In this document: in pieces, positions 1 to 9,173 of the stretch
Numbering within the stretch: the stretch's first letter is position 1
Layout of the letters: each line of letters starts with the position of its first letter
NCBI RefSeq assembly: GCF_003113895.1
Contig: NZ_BDUD01000001.1
Coordinates: 4,442,513 to 4,506,512, forward strand
Direction: 5' to 3'
DNA from: Nostoc commune NIES-4072
GTDB taxonomy: Bacteria; Cyanobacteriota; Cyanobacteriia; Cyanobacteriales; Nostocaceae
Length of the DNA: 64,000 bases
Notes under the pieces: generated by a model
Told to the model about the DNA's origin: nothing
What the model saw: only the letters and a program-made list of their open reading frames with translations
Database searches by the model: none
Translations under genes and position numbers: made by a program

Positions 1-2286
1 TGCCTCTGGATCATTTTGGAAGTTTTTGAAAAGGCGATCGCACGCTTTTAAATCTTGCTTTAATCGGCTCTCTTGAGGAGGATTTTTGACCACTAACTGG
101 GTTCTGGCGGCAACTATTTCTTGAAAGTCCTCATCATTGATTTCTAGTAGTTGACTGATATCGAATAACTGCATTACTTGTTTGGCGGTGCGAGTCTGTT
201 TCCACAGAGGACTGGTATCTCGCAAAACATCTTCCGACATAGTGGTGCAAATCTGGTTCAGCCCTATTTCATAGCGGCTTTTGCTACCTTGAGTGGCTGC
301 TGTTAACTGCTCAATCATGTCCTCATAAAGTAGGTTGAGTTCTTCGCGGTTATAGAGCTTAAACCCGTTAATTTTCAAAGCATCAGCGCTATCTGCTTCT
401 TTGTCAGCTTTTTGTTTAAAATTATCGCGTAGTTGCCGCAGCCTTTGATTAAACCGCGTTAATCGCTGCTCCATGCGATTCAGATGCTCTAAAATTCGCT
501 CAATCACCTGTAGAGACAAACTGCGGCTTTTGCCTTGAATGATCGCAATAAAGCTGCTTTCTAAACCTGTGAGTGCTTCCTCGCAATACTTCTCCATTTG
601 GGCTTGTTTAGTTAAGCCAAACAAATTTTTAAATTGGTTAATATCTTGGAGTGCGGCATTATACTGCTGTTGCCGATTAGTTTCGTTAGGTTGCCAAACT
701 TTTTCTAACTCCCGGCGGAACTTTTCTGAAGTATTGGCAAATAGCTGACGGACGTTAGTAATGAAAGCATCAGCAAATTTGGGGCCGCGATTGCGATCGC
801 TAATGATCTTGTAAAACTCTGCCTCAATCGCGTTTTTGCCTTTTTCGATAATCTGTTCGCGGTTATCGTACATTTTTTGGAGAAAGTCACCATGTGTTCG
901 TTCATCGGGGCTTAATTCTCGCAAATGATTGGCGCGATATTCATCAACTTTGGGGATAAGATAATCATCCAGAAATCTCAGAATTTTGCCTCGTTCTGTG
1001 CCGAGCACATTTACATTTTGATGAGTACATTGCAATTTATTGTCGCTGGTGATTTCATCACGAATACTCTTAATCCAGCCAGATATTTCTGACACATACG
1101 ATTTATCTACTGCCGAAGAGAGGTCTGCAAGCAATTCGGTTTCTGTAAGTCGCATTGGCTTGAGAATATCATTTTGTACCAAATCCAAAACATTAGGTGG
1201 CAGCGACACCGAGTCATTCAGCCACCAATTTACTAAATCCATACTTAGGCGATTGGATAGCGAATTGCGAATCTGAGCTACAGGAATTTCAATTGTGGAA
1301 AGACCAAAGCTCATGAAGTTTTTGGGATAGCCTCTACCACCTGAATCAGCCTGCGCCCAAGCTCCTTTAATGTTGTCTCGAATCGAACGTTTGTGTGGAG
1401 AAAAATCAGAGGTTAGATCCAAAAAAACATTTTGAGCAATCATTTCCCGAATTTGGTCGAGATTAAACTCACTTTCGCCATTCTTGGTGCCAACTAAATA
1501 AGTAAAGTCAAAGGGAGGTAATTTATTGCGAACCTCATCCACTAAACCAGCGCTAAATTTAGCTACATACTCAGTTCTGTAGTCAGAAAAGTAACTCAAT
1601 TCCATCAGAGCAGCGTAGCCATTAGCGAGAACGCGATCGCCCACATTAATACTGGCAAAAGCATTAGGCATTGGGACAATTGCTGTAATTAAAGGGCTTC
1701 CTTGACCTTTAAGCCAGTTACGTAAGCAGTAGCCGATGTCAATCAACATCCCACTGCCAGTACCACCAGAAATTGAGCCAACGACGAAAACATTTAACCC
1801 ACCACTATTAACTCTGATGTCGTACTTGTCTAACATCAAACTTTCGTGACCTTTGGCGCGATCGCACGCTTCAATAAACCGTTGTCTAATCTTGTGATAG
1901 TTATAAAAAAAGGCAAAGCGACCACAGGCACGAATTTGACCTGCACCAGCTTCTAATGCTCCAATATTGCGCTCTAATTCTTTCGGAAACCAAGACTCAA
2001 TCCAAGGATACTTTTCCATATTGGACATAATGTCATTGACTTCTTTACCACTGACACTTGCCCAATGTTTTTCATGATCCATTAATGGCGATCCTGCTAC
2101 CTCTGGATTACTTACTTTATAATCTTTATCTGTGTCAATACTAAAAAAACTAATAATTGGAAAATTCTTCAAACTGCCATAGACTTCTTCTACTAATCTT
2201 CTTACCCGTGACAAGACTTCTACACCTGTACCACCTACACCCACCAACACGGTGGGAACCATACTTTTTTCTTCAACTGCTGCCAT
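1..2286 (-). CDS. Tubulin/FtsZ-like GTPase (Tubulin_2-type), C-terminus cut by window edge
   Basis: Open frame of 762 codons starting at ATG 2286 and running off the window without a stop. Seen: an N-terminal glycine-rich nucleotide loop GVGGTG (residues 16-21) and the tubulin/FtsZ signature SGGTGSG ending near residue 179. The C-terminal half is long and helical with many charged residues (about 400-760), unlike plain FtsZ of about 400 residues. Family knowledge: such FtsZ-like proteins (Pfam Tubulin_2 type) occur with VWA-domain proteins and have been proposed to remodel membranes. The gene is last in a three-gene minus-strand set after a binding protein and a VWA protein, 93 bp after the VWA stop. 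AGGAGA lies about 6 bases before the ATG. GTP binding is well supported; polymerisation and cellular role are inference. Confidence 0.85.
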   Translation of the reverse strand, partial: MAAVEEKSMVPTVLVGVGGTGVEVLSRVRRLVEEVYGSLKNFPIISFFSIDTDKDYKVSNPEVAGSPLMDHEKHWASVSGKEVNDIMSNMEKYPWIESWFPKELERNIGALEAGAGQIRACGRFAFFYNYHKIRQRFIEACDRAKGHESLMLDKYDIRVNSGGLNVFVVGSISGGTGSGMLIDIGYCLRNWLKGQGSPLITAIVPMPNAFASINVGDRVLANGYAALMELSYFSDYRTEYVAKFSAGLVDEVRNKLPPFDFTYLVGTKNGESEFNLDQIREMIAQNVFLDLTSDFSPHKRSIRDNIKGAWAQADSGGRGYPKNFMSFGLSTIEIPVAQIRNSLSNRLSMDLVNWWLNDSVSLPPNVLDLVQNDILKPMRLTETELLADLSSAVDKSYVSEISGWIKSIRDEITSDNKLQCTHQNVNVLGTERGKILRFLDDYLIPKVDEYRANHLRELSPDERTHGDFLQKMYDNREQIIEKGKNAIEAEFYKIISDRNRGPKFADAFITNVRQLFANTSEKFRRELEKVWQPNETNRQQQYNAALQDINQFKNLFGLTKQAQMEKYCEEALTGLESSFIAIIQGKSRSLSLQVIERILEHLNRMEQRLTRFNQRLRQLRDNFKQKADKEADSADALKINGFKLYNREELNLLYEDMIEQLTAATQGSKSRYEIGLNQICTTMSEDVLRDTSPLWKQTRTAKQVMQLFDISQLLEINDEDFQEIVAARTQLVVKNPPQESRLKQDLKACDRLFKNFQNDPEA

Positions 2287-2379
2287 AATTTTCTCCTTTT
2301 AATTTTGAACTTTAAAATATGAAGGGTTATTTATCTTGATTATTTGTTAATCACCAACTCCAAACTCCTGTTTCCTGTC

Positions 2380-3276
2380 TCAACAAGTTGAGACAAAAGG
2401 TAAGCCAGATAATTGCCAAATAATTAGGGGAGTAACAACAGTCCAAAATAAAGCGTTGCCTAATGCCAACTGACCACTAAAGTTCATTGGTAAGTTGATT
2501 AACCCTTGAAAAACCCATTTGTCTAAAGGCAGGATAATTAACCACATCAAAGCAATCCATGTACAACCTCGCCAGAAATAAACCCATTTGTGATTGCTAT
2601 TAAAGCTAGCAAAAAATATATCTTTAAAAAATCTTTGAACATTATTCGATTCGCCAGATAGATAAATCCCCTTTGTGGTGTCGGTGGCTGACTTTATTTC
2701 GGGAGCATATGCTCCTATCACCACAGCATTTATTTTAACTTTCTGAGCTACTGCCTGAGTCAAAACTGATGGTATCACCTCAGCCACTCCATCAGTGACG
2801 AGCAATAATTCACGGCAACGATCTTGAATATTGCTGAGAGCTTTCGTACCTTGGTCAATGGCTTGATTAAGATTTGTTCCAGTACCAATCTGAGATGACA
2901 GATTAGAGTTTGCTAAGTCTGAGTTCAACTCAGCTTCTAACTTTTGTCTATCTGATGTGAAGGAATTAGTTAAGGGGATAACTCGATCGCCAAACCCAAA
3001 AATCTGGATCTTGTTAGGAGATTTTAATTGCTGGGAGTTTTGCTCAATATACGATCGCACCGCCGCCACTTCTTGAGCCATGACAGTATTAGGTGCGTTG
3101 AATGGCTGACCTTCGTAGGTGCTGCTGCTCATATCCAGAGCGATCGCTACTGCTACACTAGGTCTACCCAACGCTAAAATTGAACACAAAACAGTCGCAA
3201 CTAAACAAACTCCGAACACGATTAACGGAATCTGAAACAAAGGATATAGCCACAAACTGCGACGAAATCTGCTCAT
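2380..3276 (-). CDS. Membrane-anchored VWA-domain protein
   Basis: 298 residues. One hydrophobic segment at about residues 13-36, then a von Willebrand A domain with an intact MIDAS: DMSSS at 48-52 (DxSxS), a GTGT element in the middle, and a VTDG strand-end motif. A C-terminal hydrophobic region (about 230-290) suggests two or three further membrane segments. The VWA domain probably binds a partner through a divalent metal. The gene starts 13 bp after the upstream binding-protein stop and is followed by the tubulin-like gene, so the three are probably co-transcribed. The length and the membrane-VWA-membrane layout resemble BatA/BatB-type proteins, but no MoxR ATPase is present in the window. 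Partner and function are not known. Confidence 0.85.
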   Translation of the reverse strand: MSRFRRSLWLYPLFQIPLIVFGVCLVATVLCSILALGRPSVAVAIALDMSSSTYEGQPFNAPNTVMAQEVAAVRSYIEQNSQQLKSPNKIQIFGFGDRVIPLTNSFTSDRQKLEAELNSDLANSNLSSQIGTGTNLNQAIDQGTKALSNIQDRCRELLLVTDGVAEVIPSVLTQAVAQKVKINAVVIGAYAPEIKSATDTTKGIYLSGESNNVQRFFKDIFFASFNSNHKWVYFWRGCTWIALMWLIILPLDKWVFQGLINLPMNFSGQLALGNALFWTVVTPLIIWQLSGLPFVSTC

Positions 3277-3289
3277 TGGATGTGGGATT

Positions 3290-4531
3290 TTAAGGAGTTG
3301 AGTTGCGAATCGGTACTAGACCAGCTTGGTCTACTAGTTTTTGACCTTCATCACTTAAGAGTAAGTTTACATAAGCTACACCAGCCTGTTCATCCAGGTT
3401 GCGATCGCGTTTTATCACAACAAACAGTCGTCTAGTCAGAGGGTAGATGTCTTTAGCAAAATCAGTTTTATTCACTAGTTTTTCGATACAAGGAGACACA
3501 AAACTCTGATTAGCCTCTTTTCCTATTGGCAAAGGCTTAATCAAACTTTGATTGCAGACTTCAGAAGCAGTTGCATAACCAATCCCGCCAGGAGTTTGAG
3601 CTACCTTTCGGATAGCAGTTGTAGTGTCTATCGCATAAGGTTTTACAGATGGGGCAAATGCTTCCTTCTCCAACACTTTTTCTTGAAAGTATTCAGGAGT
3701 ACCACCATCATCAGGGTCACGGCTCGAAGGCGTAATTTGAATATCGGGGCCACCCACTTGCTTCCAGTTCGTGATTTGGCCAGTGTATATATCCTTAATC
3801 TGAGATATCGTTAAACCAGGGATAGTCAAATCACGATGGACGTAAAAAGCAATTCCATCAATGGCAACAGGTTGCTGTTCCAGAGTGAAATTGCGTGTTT
3901 TCGCTTCGTTATGCTCGTCCGGTTTTACTTCTCTAGAAGTTTGGGAAAAACTCAGTTGACCCTCTAGAAGCATTCTGATCCCGCTACCAGACCCAGCCTT
4001 GATTCCTGACGATGGCCCGGTGTAGACCAACTCAAATCCCGGATGAGCTTTCAAAATCAGCGCTACTATTTCCCGACTCCTCAGCGGTGCAAAGCTTGTA
4101 GAACCACCGTATCTAATGATTCCCTGAGGAACGTTAGGCACATCGCGTAAGGTAGGGTAAAGATTAACGATAGCAGCAGGAGAGACTGAAGTGGTAGGAG
4201 TAGGAGTAATGGGAGGGGTAGGAGTAGGAGTAGTTGGATTTGGATCAGGAGTAAGTGCCAAACAGACACCGTTGATTTTTTGCTGACCTGTTGGACAAGG
4301 TTTACGTATAAATATGAAAGCAGCAACAAGGGCAGTTAAAACAGCACCAATGATAGCAGCAGGTTTGACCCATGTTGGCAATTGACGGCTATTGTCCATT
4401 GCCTCCTTTGGTAAACCACAAATCACACAAGATGGGCCGTAATTTTCATAGGGTTGATGCTTGCCATTAGGATTTTGCTTTGGGTAGGTTTTGCCATTTT
4501 TTGGCTCACCATCACATTTCCAGTTTGCCAT
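3290..4531 (-). CDS. PstS-like substrate-binding domain protein with N-terminal Cys motif and one membrane segment
   Basis: 413 residues. Residues 1-50 hold Cys/His positions (C6, a CVIC pair near 35-38) that look like a small zinc-ribbon-like module. A single membrane segment follows (about 55-75), then a Pro/Thr-rich linker (about 92-116), then a phosphate-type periplasmic binding domain (about 135-410) with the ST-rich pocket typical of PstS-like folds (GGSTSFAPL, GPSSGIKAGSGSG). There is no cleavable signal peptide, so the binding domain is probably tethered outside with the Cys module inside. AGGAGAA lies 10 bases before the ATG. First gene of the set with the VWA and tubulin-like genes; no pst permease is adjacent. 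The ligand is unknown, and a sensor role is inference. Confidence 0.82.
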   Translation of the reverse strand: MANWKCDGEPKNGKTYPKQNPNGKHQPYENYGPSCVICGLPKEAMDNSRQLPTWVKPAAIIGAVLTALVAAFIFIRKPCPTGQQKINGVCLALTPDPNPTTPTPTPPITPTPTTSVSPAAIVNLYPTLRDVPNVPQGIIRYGGSTSFAPLRSREIVALILKAHPGFELVYTGPSSGIKAGSGSGIRMLLEGQLSFSQTSREVKPDEHNEAKTRNFTLEQQPVAIDGIAFYVHRDLTIPGLTISQIKDIYTGQITNWKQVGGPDIQITPSSRDPDDGGTPEYFQEKVLEKEAFAPSVKPYAIDTTTAIRKVAQTPGGIGYATASEVCNQSLIKPLPIGKEANQSFVSPCIEKLVNKTDFAKDIYPLTRRLFVVIKRDRNLDEQAGVAYVNLLLSDEGQKLVDQAGLVPIRNSTP

Positions 4532-4923: not shown

Positions 4924-5718
4924 TTACATAGAATCGAGCCGATGACGTAATTGGCTACTAAAAGCATCAATGACTGTAACGACTACCAAAAGCACTAACA
5001 TCATGGTTGTTGCTTTCGTATACTCGAACCCGTCGATGTAACTTTTCAACTGAAAGCCAATACCACCTGCACCAACTACACCCAAGACAGAAGCAGCACG
5101 GATGTTGTACTCAAACATCCAAAAGGTGTAACCCAATCCTAGAGGTAGCACTTGCGGGAGAATGCCGTATTGAGCAATCTGTAACTTGGAAGCTCCGATA
5201 ACTTGTAAGGATTCAAGAGAACGCGGATCAACGGCTTCAATTGCCTGTTGATAAAATTTGGCAAGGTAGCCGATGGTGTAGATTCCCAAAGCTAAAGTTC
5301 CTGCTGGTGCGCCTAAGCCAGTGGCAGCTACAAAAATTAGCCCTAGAATAATTGAGGGGACGGAACGCACAGTATTTTGCAGTAAATTAGCTAGCGATCG
5401 CAACCACCCAGGCGCAATATTGCTGGCGCTAGCTATAGCAATCGGTACAGAAAGAATGGCTCCAATGGTAGTTCCCCATAAAGACATTTGTACAGTTTCA
5501 ATTAGTGCTTTAACTGCAATATCTAAAACTTTCCAATCGGGAGGAAATAACCGGGTAATAAAATCGGTGATGTATGGCCAGCTAGAACGCAGTAGTTCAA
5601 AATCGAGTTTGAGTCCTCGCAAAGCCCAACCATAAACTACTACGACAATTAATAAGATGAGTAGAGAACTCAGCCAAGGGTAGAAGCGTAAGCGTTTTAA
5701 ATTAAAAAAGGAACTCAT
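4924..5718 (-). CDS. phnE: Phosphonate/phosphite-type ABC transporter permease
   Basis: 264 residues, normal for PhnE. Membrane segments include about 16-36 and several between 80 and 250. The EAA-type loop that docks on the ATPase is at about 160-190 (starting EAVDPRSLESLQ with the conserved Gly at 175). Last gene of the phnD-phnC-phnE group, 22 bp after phnC, all on the minus strand. It forms the inner-membrane channel for phosphonate, phosphite or a similar phosphorus oxyanion. No C-P lyase genes and no phosphite dehydrogenase gene are in the window, so the substrate cannot be fixed. Confidence 0.9.
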   Translation of the reverse strand: MSSFFNLKRLRFYPWLSSLLILLIVVVVYGWALRGLKLDFELLRSSWPYITDFITRLFPPDWKVLDIAVKALIETVQMSLWGTTIGAILSVPIAIASASNIAPGWLRSLANLLQNTVRSVPSIILGLIFVAATGLGAPAGTLALGIYTIGYLAKFYQQAIEAVDPRSLESLQVIGASKLQIAQYGILPQVLPLGLGYTFWMFEYNIRAASVLGVVGAGGIGFQLKSYIDGFEYTKATTMMLVLLVVVTVIDAFSSQLRHRLDSM

Positions 5719-5740
5719 ATTGTATTAAATCAAATCCCAC

Positions 5741-6475
5741 TCAACCGGAAACTTTCGCAAATTTAGCTTGTAAGTTGTCACAAAGTCCTTGGTAAACGAC
5801 GCGTCCAGCATCTAAGACGATCGCTTTTTGGGCATATTTTTCTGCGATTCCCAAATCGTGCAAAACTGCGACAATAGTCATACCTTGCTGAGTGTGCAAT
5901 TGGGATAGAGTTTCCATGACTTGTTGGGATGCCACAACATCTAAGCCTGTGATGGGTTCATCGACTAAGAGAATTTGCGGTGATTGAATTAAAGTCCGGG
6001 CGATCGCTACTCGTTGTTGCTGTCCGCCACTTAATTGACTGGTTTTTTGAAAAGCTAACTCTAAGAGTCCTAACTGTTCTAATAAATTTAGTGCCAACAT
6101 GCGATCGCGTTTGGAAAATCCAAAGAGTGTTTGCCAAGTTGTTCTTTTACCAAGGCATCCGCACAAGACATTTTCCAATGCTGATAACTGCCGAATCAAT
6201 CCGCCACCTTGAAATAACATCCCAACATCGCGCCGAATTTTTGGCAGTGTTCGGGAATTCATCTCAACATTATTGACGATGATTTCTCCTCTGACTGATG
6301 GCACTAATCCAACTAGCGATCGTAGTAATGTAGACTTACCAGCACCGTTTAGCCCCAGTAAAACGACAAATTCACCGCGTTTAATCTGGCAATTAATCCC
6401 GTTGATAATAGGACGATTCAGAGATGCAGCATAAGCTGTTTCTAGGTTATGACACTCAATAACATAATCATTCAT
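5741..6475 (-). CDS. phnC: Phosphonate/phosphite-type ABC transporter ATP-binding protein
   Basis: 244 residues with all ABC ATPase elements: Walker A GLNGAGKST at 41-49, signature LSGGQ at 148-152, Walker B ILLVDEP at 168-174, and a switch His near HDLG after residue 205. Its place between a PhnD-type binding protein (152 bp upstream) and a PhnE-type permease (22 bp downstream) fixes the family. It hydrolyses ATP to drive uptake through PhnE. The start at ATG 6475 gives the normal N-terminus. Confidence 0.92.
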   Translation of the reverse strand: MNDYVIECHNLETAYAASLNRPIINGINCQIKRGEFVVLLGLNGAGKSTLLRSLVGLVPSVRGEIIVNNVEMNSRTLPKIRRDVGMLFQGGGLIRQLSALENVLCGCLGKRTTWQTLFGFSKRDRMLALNLLEQLGLLELAFQKTSQLSGGQQQRVAIARTLIQSPQILLVDEPITGLDVVASQQVMETLSQLHTQQGMTIVAVLHDLGIAEKYAQKAIVLDAGRVVYQGLCDNLQAKFAKVSG

Positions 6476-6627
6476 ATAGCAATCCTATTTGTGTTGTAAA
6501 ATTTATCGAACCGCCAAGCCGCCAAGAAAAGAAGGAAAGAGGTTTACGAATCATTTAGGACTGCTATAGAAATTTCTTTATCCGCTAACAGTTATTCAAA
6601 ATGTTCACTGAATAACTGTTAACTGAA

Positions 6628-7602
6628 TTATGGTTCAATGCCAGCAACTTGCAGAGCGTCACGCATAATTGCTAAGTGACGATCGTGATTAATTCGCACT
6701 AATTCTGTGGAATTATACAAGTCGCTTAACAGTTTATTATTTTCCGACTTATTTAATTTCAGTAAGGCGTTGATGATTTTTTCCCGTGTTGGTGTTGGAA
6801 CATCATCATCAATAGCAATACCGTGGGCAGGTACACCAGTAATTTTGTGCAGAACCCGTAACTTACTCTTCTCTTCGGCGGTAATATAAGGTGGATTCAG
6901 AGCATATTCTGACACAACAGCCACATCAGCTTGACCGCGCACAACTGCTTGCAAGGCTTTGCTGTAATTACCGCCGTAAGAAACTTGACCAAAGAAACCA
7001 TCTAAGCGATCGCGGTTAGGTACAAATTTTTGTTTGACCAACTCAGCGACAGGGATAATAAACCCAGAGCCAGAAGTAGGGGAAGTAAAAGCAATTTTTT
7101 TGCCCCGCAGTTGTTCTAAAGTGGCTTTAGCTGAATTTTGAGTTTTTAGGGGACTATTTTTAGGGACAACAAATATTGAGCTATAGGTGTATTTTCCAGA
7201 ATAAGTAGGACGAACTTCGGCTAGATACAAGCTGGCGTTTGCTAATTGTTTCGCTTTCAAAGCCGGACGGCTACTTAAAAAAGCGACATCAGCCCGATTT
7301 GCTCTCAAAGCTTCCACAGCAGCTGTATCATCAGCAACTTGGGCGACGACTGGAATTCCTAACTCTTTCGATAGAAAAGCTCCTACCGCATTTGCCTTAT
7401 TTTGCAAGTCTGTAGAATCAGCACGACTGGGAAAAACTATTGTTAAAGTCTTCTGCCGTTGGGCAAGTAAGCGTGGTGTCTGTTGATTAGTGGTGGGGTT
7501 GGCGATCGTTGCCTGCATAGCCCCTACTGTGCTGACTACTAAACCTGTAAGTACTGCAAATGCCGCGCCAGCACCCAATAAGCTCTTTTTCCTCACACTC
7601 AT
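6628..7602 (-). CDS. phnD: Phosphonate/phosphite-type ABC transporter periplasmic binding protein
   Basis: 324 residues from ATG 7602, which has GGAGAG six bases upstream; a TTG two codons earlier is less likely. An N-terminal hydrophobic segment (about 8-32) acts as export signal. The mature part has the PhnD layout: an early beta strand followed by an SRADSTDLQ-type loop, TSPTSGSGF in the middle, and a conserved region ending in VVSEYA. It binds the substrate outside the inner membrane and delivers it to PhnE. First gene of the phn group. I did not see a convincing PHO box in the roughly 150 bases upstream. Confidence 0.9.
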   Translation of the reverse strand: MSVRKKSLLGAGAAFAVLTGLVVSTVGAMQATIANPTTNQQTPRLLAQRQKTLTIVFPSRADSTDLQNKANAVGAFLSKELGIPVVAQVADDTAAVEALRANRADVAFLSSRPALKAKQLANASLYLAEVRPTYSGKYTYSSIFVVPKNSPLKTQNSAKATLEQLRGKKIAFTSPTSGSGFIIPVAELVKQKFVPNRDRLDGFFGQVSYGGNYSKALQAVVRGQADVAVVSEYALNPPYITAEEKSKLRVLHKITGVPAHGIAIDDDVPTPTREKIINALLKLNKSENNKLLSDLYNSTELVRINHDRHLAIMRDALQVAGIEP

Positions 7603-7754
7603 TTGCAACTCTCCATTAGGAAGTTTTATCAGTTCTTTTGCTAATTAATTTCAATTAATCCTTAAAAAATATTTATAGCTTTTAAGAACAAAAGTCAATA
7701 ATAAAGCCTAGTTTGTTTGGAGAGTTGTAGGCTTCTTTTGTAAGTGTATTGGCA

Positions 7755-8150: not shown

Positions 8151-8418
8151 AAATATTACTTTCTCTAACGATGTTTCTTGTTTACCAATTTCTAGCTGAG
8201 AAGCGATCGGTTTGTAAACTTCTCCATCTGGCATTATCGCACCAGTCAGGTCAGCATCTTATAATCACAAAAACTTTGTGTCACAGGTATTGCTCTCTTT
8301 TCTTCCTTTGCGGTTCGTCCCTTTTATCCCAACCTTGGACGTATTCCATAATGCCGCTAGGTCAGCATCTTGATCGCACTCGTATAATACTGGTACAACA
8401 AACTGCAAAACATCATTG

Positions 8419-8727
8419 ATGAATATAAAAGAAATACTGCTCCAAGAAATTGAATCATCCTCAGATGTTCTACTAGCCCAAACGCTAGATTTTTTGCGTT
8501 CTCTCAAAACAAAACCAACAACCGAGGAAATATCTCTTGACCTGTCAACGGAAAAAAATGATGATACTTCCAATCATCAAACAGAACCGCAAATACATGA
8601 AGCAACACCAATTCTTAGAGGCTCTAAAGCAGAAGACTTGCTAAAATTTGCCGGAACTTGGCAAGGAGATGATTTTGAAGAGTGCTTACAGCTTGTTTAC
8701 GAAACTCGTTCCTCGGCTGAATTTTAG
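8419..8727 (+). CDS. Putative antitoxin paired with PIN toxin
   Basis: 102 residues from ATG 8419 (a TTG lies just before it). The N-terminus (MNIKEILLQEIESSSDVLL) is amphipathic, followed by an acidic, probably disordered middle. It has no clear catalytic motif. Its stop codon at 8725-8727 nearly touches the start of the PIN gene at 8730, the standard antitoxin-toxin layout. Similar short proteins with a leading helical segment are common antitoxins of cyanobacterial PIN toxins. Function is inferred from context. Confidence 0.7.
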   Translation: MNIKEILLQEIESSSDVLLAQTLDFLRSLKTKPTTEEISLDLSTEKNDDTSNHQTEPQIHEATPILRGSKAEDLLKFAGTWQGDDFEECLQLVYETRSSAEF

Positions 8728-8729
8728 TG

Positions 8730-9173
8730 ATGTACCTTTTAGATACTAACCATTGTAGCCGAATCATTTTTGGAGAAAGCAACGTCATTCGTCGATTACA
8801 AGAACACATCGGCTTAGGAGTTGCAACTAGCGTTATTGTGCAAGGTGAACTCCTTTACATGGTGCAAAAGTCTTCTCAACAAGAAGCAGATCTTCGCTTT
8901 GTTAGAACTTTTTTGCAAACCATTGACCTTTATCCCATTAGTGGAGGGGTTGCCGATGTTTACGGTAGCCTCAAAGGAGAAATTGTCGAAAATTTTGGCC
9001 CCAAAGACAAAGCAAAGCGTAGAAAATTTACAGTTCAAAATTTGGGTTTTAGTGATAACGACTTGTGGATAGCATCAACTGCTCTGCACTATAACCTCAC
9101 CATTGTCTCAAGGGACAGCGATTTTCAAAGGATACAACAGGTGCAAGCCTTAGCGTTAGAATCTTGGCTTTGA
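8730..9173 (+). CDS. PIN-domain toxin, VapC-like ribonuclease
   Basis: 147 residues. The PIN acidic residues are visible: D5 in LLDTNH, the Glu of VQGELLY near 37, and the C-terminal Asp residues around DNDLWIAS and SRDSDF. ATG 8730 is chosen; a GTG at 8727 overlaps the antitoxin stop. PIN toxins cut RNA with Mg2+ and are neutralised by the adjacent antitoxin. All catalytic positions look intact, so the module may be active. Its RNA target is unknown. Confidence 0.88.
   Translation: MYLLDTNHCSRIIFGESNVIRRLQEHIGLGVATSVIVQGELLYMVQKSSQQEADLRFVRTFLQTIDLYPISGGVADVYGSLKGEIVENFGPKDKAKRRKFTVQNLGFSDNDLWIASTALHYNLTIVSRDSDFQRIQQVQALALESWL

Follow-up and report, generated by a model that had tools for sequence, protein, structure and literature searches.

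The first 4,531 nucleotides of the DNA analysed here, a 64,000-nucleotide stretch of Nostoc commune NIES-4072 (contig NZ_BDUD01000001.1, positions 4,442,513 to 4,506,512; G000:C1:4442513-4506512 within the 8.2 Mb genome G000, called the window below, to which coordinates are relative), hold three adjoining genes on the minus strand. They encode a membrane-tethered PstS-like receptor, a VWA membrane protein and a tubulin-like GTPase of the FtsZ-like 1 / Tubulin_2 family. In relatives the three parts were found together, also where their genes are unlinked, and the receptor combines a constant Cys/His module with binding domains that are exchanged between lineages. We propose that the proteins may constitute a three-protein transmembrane signalling device, in which a tubulin-like assembly bound to the membrane is governed by a ligand sensor whose ectodomains can be swapped; we put the probability of this reading at slightly less than one half (about 0.48).

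The receptor gene (3290..4531, minus strand, 413 aa) is separated by 13 bp from the VWA gene (2380..3276, minus strand, 298 aa), and a gap of 93 bp lies between the VWA gene and the GTPase gene (1..2286, minus strand), assigned by Pfam and AlphaFold2. The first 762 codons of the latter are in the window; the gene is cut by the window edge and runs on to G000:C1:4441496, giving 1100 aa in full. Pfam matched PBP_like_2 in the receptor (E 1.6e-30), VWA_2 in the VWA protein (7.1e-9) and Tubulin_2 in the GTPase (3.7e-113; 1e-112 over residues 13-352 of the full-length protein). The VWA gene shares a predicted operon with the Tubulin_2 GTPase gene, an arrangement that counts towards membership of FtsZ-like 1. 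The original prediction, which was made from the window alone, had described three adjoining minus-strand genes with intact GVGGTG, GGTGSG and DxSxS motifs. This was confirmed; GGTGSG was invariant in 33 aligned GTPase homologues, and the D and both S of DxSxS in 19 VWA homologues.

To compare gene order, 40 stretches were fetched around GTPase homologues from 38 genomes of an order sample of 148 genomes, and their genes were called. Homologues with at least 55% identity were taken as orthologues, to which G117 (47-52%) and G120 (41%) were added in this sample. This gave 34 orthologue loci from 32 genomes, G000 included and the second copies in G060 and G080 (37-40%) counted. At 23 of the 34 loci a single strand carries, in this order, the third gene, the VWA gene and the GTPase gene. 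The VWA protein is reduced to its membrane part at three of the 23, and at some (L066, L067, L073, L076, L088) further open frames lie between the set genes. Such a comparison of neighbourhoods had been named in the original prediction as the test that could overturn it, and the proposed system came through.

The third gene is thus conserved, but usually not in the form seen in the window. In 21 of the 23 ordered loci it encodes a protein of 526-614 residues belonging to a single BLAST cluster; when four members were scanned, three matched the LivJ-type Peripla_BP_6 and one (L094) did not. The PstS type was found at only two of the 34 loci, those of G000 (the window) and G091, so the usual partner is a LivJ-type protein. 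Mainly about 46 N-terminal residues and a single membrane helix are common to the two types of receptor. Among the 11 other loci, the VWA and GTPase genes adjoin without a third gene in L075, L087 and L095, and the GTPase gene has neither partner beside it in L077-L080, L089, L091, L092 and L093. The genomes of these 11 loci carry the module elsewhere in all cases except G070, and the VWA protein in all except G070, G095 and G112. L095 and L087 carry proteins that look helical. All three pairings were seen as neighbours, module with VWA, VWA with GTPase, and GTPase with module (L171).

In the window receptor the Cys/His (CHCC) module comprises residues 1-44 (4400..4531, minus strand; alignment of modules), followed by a predicted membrane helix at residues 57-75 (4307..4363, minus strand; hydropathy) and the PstS-like (PBP_like_2) ectodomain at residues 136-395 (3347..4126, minus strand; Pfam and PDB sequence matches). 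Residues W4, C6, G8, H25, C35 and C38 were invariant among 20 aligned modules, and from this pattern the module probably binds zinc through four invariant candidate ligands. The predicted topology of the receptor would place the binding domain outside and the Cys/His module inside the cytoplasm. A scan of 84,980 species genomes with two exact module patterns yielded 42 loci, 41 of them titled cyanobacteria. The other one, L163, bears the title Candidatus Gracilibacteria, but the contig is probably misplaced, since its module hardly differs from the one in Hydrococcus L165. The module gene was recovered in 40 of the 42 loci (L168 and L180 gave none by pattern). Of these 40, 35 were of the LivJ type (L143, L157 and L163 incomplete), four of the PstS type (Microseira wollei L161, Cyanomargarita L166, Aff. 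Roholtiella L169 and Desmonostoc L176) and one PsbP-like (L158). Protein searches located the same module on a WD40 propeller (P0016) and in short versions (P0018-P0022), of which the four that were read look helical by eye. Two module-LivJ proteins, P0027 (413 aa) and P0031 (469 aa), both list 10078-long contigs and are perhaps tandem receptor copies.

The window ectodomain contains the PstS-like motifs GGSTS, SR, IDGIA and SR..DGGT, which we take to form the ligand pocket of the family, and the family motifs are retained in 14 aligned module-linked proteins. Of the PstS-like pocket originally claimed, the motifs are thus present, with a presumed role in the pocket as in the family. Like PstS phosphate-binding proteins, the receptor has a PBP_like_2 domain, and the nearest solved sequences in a PDB sequence search were the phosphate-binding proteins 4q8r and 4gd5. 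Unlike them, it carries its ectodomain on a membrane helix that leads to the Cys/His module, and it scored 146.2 bits with the NCBI PstS model TIGR02136, under the cut-off of 206.6. The LivJ-type ectodomain of L097 resembled branched-chain amino acid binders. An AlphaFold2 model of the window receptor was too poor for a fold search (mean pLDDT 55.6, thin alignment) and was set aside.

These resemblances to LivJ- and PstS-type solute-binding proteins could also mean that the tethered proteins catch solute for a transporter, with the GTPase only organising transporters in the membrane. A phosphonate-type ABC cassette does begin 392 bp upstream of the receptor gene in the window, but it has its own binding protein, and in the loci listed, where most neighbours were not scanned, no receptor was seen to have a similar cassette next to it. 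The PsbP-like, WD40 and short parts on the same module are not solute-capture folds, and the module-linked PstS domains group apart from the mostly short-tailed anchored PstS-like proteins (below). We consider such an uptake role very unlikely.

The exchange of ectodomains was followed on maximum-likelihood trees. Among the 39 rows of the GTPase tree, the four with a PstS-type receptor fell in two separate places: the Nostocales PstS-type group joined the LivJ-type row G011 (100/100), and the PstS-type G091 formed a pair with the LivJ-type G039 (100/100). The tree thereby requires no fewer than two changes of ectodomain. In the PstS-domain tree (44 rows), the 13 module-linked PstS domains formed one clade (100/98), which sits in a group (100/99) with eight other receptor-like PstS domains, seven of them on cytosolic parts of about 300 residues and one (L023) on another zinc-ribbon-like stretch. 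Which of the eight is the nearest neighbour of the clade had a support of only 81/2. The other 23 rows are mostly short-tailed anchored PstS-like proteins, the kinase-linked L022 included; the rows are the best matches to the window protein and not a sample of transporter PstS. Since the PstS-type receptors are split on the GTPase tree and their PstS domains form a single clade, either the domain or the gene passed between lineages, or two replacements came from one source. The module tree (47 columns) is too short to tell movement of the ectodomain only from movement of the whole gene; in it the Microseira module stands apart from the Nostocales modules, beside long-branched rows and on weak forks. 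L141, L149, L152, L155, L161 and L167 were omitted from the GTPase and module trees as same genomes, the PstS tree omits the near-copies P0007 and P0010, and P0032 and P0041 are in no tree. By eye, receptor-like PstS proteins in cyanobacteria form a wider set, in which PstS-like domains lie behind a kinase-like part (L022), a zinc-ribbon-like stretch (L023) or a cytosolic part of about 300 aa (L012, L016).

Co-occurrence of the three genes was examined in the order sample and in a class sample of 291 genomes (G000, G095 and G112 are in both). In the order sample, the GTPase orthologue was present in 32 of 148 genomes. VWA matches were accepted there at E <=1e-10, and G080 and G097 contribute three loci whose match covers the membrane part alone. 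The module was detected in 31 of these 32 (not G070) and in 4 of the 116 genomes without the orthologue, two of them weakly (G023, G141); for the VWA protein the numbers were 29/32 and 0/116. In the class sample, 23 of 291 genomes had an orthologue, fragments in G407 and G338 included. The module was found in 22 of the 23 (not G407, 72% complete) vs 6 of 268, and the VWA protein in 20 of the 23 (G373 and G389 by partial matches) vs 1 of 268.

Such a pattern could arise from shared ancestry or from a single mobile cluster, with no joint function. Relatedness does inflate the counts, and G060 and G080 hold second, diverged copies of the whole set. On the other hand, each of the 11 genomes of family f58 that have the orthologue also has the module and the VWA protein. 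In the ten of this family that were compared the genes are unlinked; where a single contig holds all three, as in eight genomes, distances of 159 kb to 1.9 Mb along it separate them. That genes this far apart are kept together argues for a joint function beyond linkage. Moreover, 10 of the 15 order-sample families contain both positive and negative genomes (among the matches listed), and in the negative genomes of those ten no VWA protein was found, and the module turned up only in G013 and, as a weak match, in G141. An origin of the pattern in ancestry or a mobile cluster therefore appears very unlikely indeed.

GVGGTG and GGTGSG are both present in the GTPase, and residues 18-21 and 174-179 were invariant among the 33 aligned homologues. 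In the AlphaFold2 model long helices extend over residues 467-496, 501-553 and 560-636, and by VIA-align the model matches CetZ over 308 of 342 residues, the last aligned model residue being 884. The model suggests that the GTPase retains an almost complete tubulin fold, divided by a long helical insertion; the second half of the fold, undetected according to the authors of the 2010 description of the family (below), may follow after about 400 residues of insertion. The GTPase differs from CetZ and tubulin in the long insertion between the fold halves, and also in a zinc-ribbon-like C-terminal end, recognised by eye in the stretch shown (two CxxC pairs or nearly so) in 21 of the 33 aligned rows and missing in 12. 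The tail of the window GTPase scored 17.2 bits with Zn_Ribbon_1, under the Pfam cut-off of 25. Two other searches were not used further: a solved-structure search with the GTPase profile gave weak matches only (best 0.038, a nucleoprotein; tubulin 0.42), and Foldseek alone on the model gave TM-scores of at most 0.46 among the best 50 targets listed. In a more distant GTPase subfamily (22-25% identical; L099-L105), VWA-like, MotA/TolQ-like and OmpA-like genes were seen by eye nearby in several loci; the L099 copies of these neighbours had no Pfam match.

In the VWA protein, an N-terminal membrane helix precedes a VWA domain with a metal-ion-dependent adhesion site (MIDAS), and a hydrophobic C-terminal region follows. 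MIDAS residues D48, S50 and S52 (DxSxS) and D162 were invariant across 19 aligned full-length homologues, as were two further cysteines, C154 and C298; the middle T of the motif is present in the window protein and, by eye, not in all aligned rows. By the hydropathy rule all 19 homologues have the N-terminal helix, 17 have another one and 5 have three, and the C-terminal region looks hydrophobic in all. One to four Arg/Lys precede the first helix, which suggests that the N-terminus is inside and that the VWA domain would lie outside; we consider the domain to be probably extracytoplasmic, and direct contact between it and the GTPase is then unlikely. At two loci in G080 and in G097 the VWA domain is gone and the flanking membrane part is retained, which suggests that the membrane part may be what the GTPase needs. 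In Aff. Roholtiella (L169:6712-7098) the VWA gene is disrupted by an internal deletion; up to the contig end, no damage is apparent in the receptor gene or at the beginning of the GTPase gene.

In the device we propose, the receptor would be anchored by one helix, with a domain binding a small ligand outside the cytoplasm and the short Cys/His module, probably with zinc, inside. The binding domain would be swapped between lineages (a LivJ fold of amino-acid type in most, a PstS fold of phosphate type here), with the inner module kept constant. The VWA membrane protein, its metal-dependent domain probably outside, would associate with the receptor. Across the membrane, the Cys/His module together with the VWA protein's membrane part would relay the ligand state to the tubulin-like GTPase in the cytosol. 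Assembly of the GTPase, presumably by polymerisation, or its attachment to the membrane would be the step under ligand control. A sensor signalling to the VWA/GTPase pair had already been suggested in the original prediction. What strengthens this idea is that the binding domain is exchanged around a Cys module that stays constant; direct touch between the VWA domain and the GTPase became unlikely with the VWA domain probably outside.

Several observations weigh against the proposed device. Contacts between the three proteins are predicted only. The topology is drawn from hydropathy and a weak charge bias, and in the window receptor the K+R counts flanking the helix are 3 vs 3. Pfam had no match in GTPase residues 770-960, and a T7-like catalytic motif was not recognised in the GTPase. 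G095, G112 and G295 have the GTPase and the module with no VWA match, G070 (a 77% complete genome) has the GTPase alone, and the module occurs without a GTPase orthologue in the 4 order-sample and 6 class-sample genomes counted above. It also occurs on the WD40 and PsbP-like parts, for which no GTPase context is at hand. Because the genome searches score no more than a share of the first-look candidates, absences are uncertain, and the Fisher p values for the co-occurrence tables ignore relatedness.

Makarova and Koonin (2010, PMC2875224) reported the FtsZ-like 1 family together with its VWA partner and proposed that it has a part in remodelling membranes, so that the association cited in the original prediction was already in print. 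According to the parts of that paper available, the set described here is like the FtsZl1/VWA systems in having a Tubulin_2 GTPase and a VWA membrane protein in an operon and kinase genes near some loci. It differs in that the components named there are VWA, a P-loop GTPase, kinases and OmpA-like proteins. Under the published proposal the GTPase would be a membrane scaffold in membrane shaping or vesicle formation, and the binding-protein domains would merely anchor it to outside material. That membrane proteins adjoin a tubulin-like fold suits this proposal. It leaves unexplained that the outer folds are mostly ligand-binding ones, with the PstS-type motifs kept in the 14 aligned proteins, and that two unrelated binding folds replace each other; we regard it as improbable.

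Another possible reading is a membrane-associated conflict (defence) system, whose swapped ectodomains would serve recognition of or response to invaders or competitors. Kaur et al. (2020, PMC7159879), in the parts available, described GTPase-centred systems of firmicutes and actinobacteria in which a tubulin domain fused to a coiled coil occurs with membrane VWA proteins, the VWA being outside, and, as a separate system, a constant part joined to about 50 alternative domains, including a membrane helix followed by a periplasmic-binding-protein domain. Both the part list and the constant-plus-variable design are similar to ours. The tubulin theme differs in being centred on a TRAFAC GTPase and GAP1 and in its restriction to those two phyla, and the binding-protein variant in having a caspase or cyclase as the constant part, without a tubulin. 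A conflict role would also fit the patchy distribution (the 10 mixed families of 15, among the matches listed) and the toxin/antitoxin-like genes seen by eye near some copies (window 8416-9173; L156_02). However, PADLOC gave no match for the three set proteins or the two genes downstream, and no DO-GTPase/GAP1 pair or caspase was noticed in the loci listed, where most neighbours were not scanned. Furthermore, the commonest ectodomain has a small-nutrient-binding fold, and presence throughout families f9 (8/8) and f12 (6/6), among the matches listed, suits a house function. We concluded that a conflict role is unlikely.

Other genes were seen around the set. The phosphonate-type ABC cassette (permease, ATPase, binding protein; window 4924-7608) is on the same strand as the receptor gene and is perhaps a chance neighbour, as no like cassette was noticed next to the receptors of relatives. 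The second gene of the toxin/antitoxin-like pair at window 8416-9173 is PIN-like by eye. Downstream of the window GTPase (L003:13143-16853) lie genes for an 856-aa ATPase-TPR protein and a 157-aa protein without a Pfam match; relatives of the two were found directly downstream of no other GTPase orthologue. G000 has a second, divergent Tubulin_2 cluster (L005:5140-12358) encoding a 561-aa VWA protein, an 809-aa protein that matches the later part of the Tubulin_2 profile and a 1024-aa protein without a Pfam match, with no adjoining receptor. In Crocosphaera a nucleotidyltransferase-like gene (L156:2776-3072, L156_02; by eye) lies between the VWA and GTPase genes. Genes of a kinase-headed cluster occur at most five genes from the GTPase in L067, L068, L069, L070, L082, L083, L085, L086 and L094. 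The cluster, whose first member is by eye a Ser/Thr kinase, is loose and also contains two module proteins; it fits the 2010 report.

The FtsZ-like/VWA pair has been published since 2010; the conserved third gene with a swapped ectodomain seems to be new. The text of PMC2875224 as available mentions neither the Cys/His module nor the exchange of ectodomains nor co-occurrence without linkage, though the third gene may figure in its Additional files 5 and 6. No paper on the module or the exchange was found in a search that fell short of most subscription papers, bioRxiv and supplements. In the published exchange with the referees of the 2010 paper, as far as available, one noted that in Arthrospira platensis the neighbour of the gene encodes the periplasmic part of a transporter for branched-chain amino acids, and raised transport or signalling as a function, and it was asked how a cytoplasmic GTPase might work with periplasmic proteins. 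A module with exchangeable ectodomains would offer a concrete bridge across the membrane for this question. Tentatively, and with somewhat less confidence than in the device itself, we suggest that cyanobacteria have a family of receptors in which outer ligand-binding domains are interchangeable on an invariable inner Cys/His module, and that these receptors gate assembly of the membrane-bound tubulin-fold GTPase via the VWA protein, as a bacterial counterpart of a receptor-controlled cytoskeleton. The predicted input, amino-acid-like or phosphate-like ligands, and the small operons are open to testing. If true, bacteria would have a testable way to control a cytoskeleton from an outside signal.

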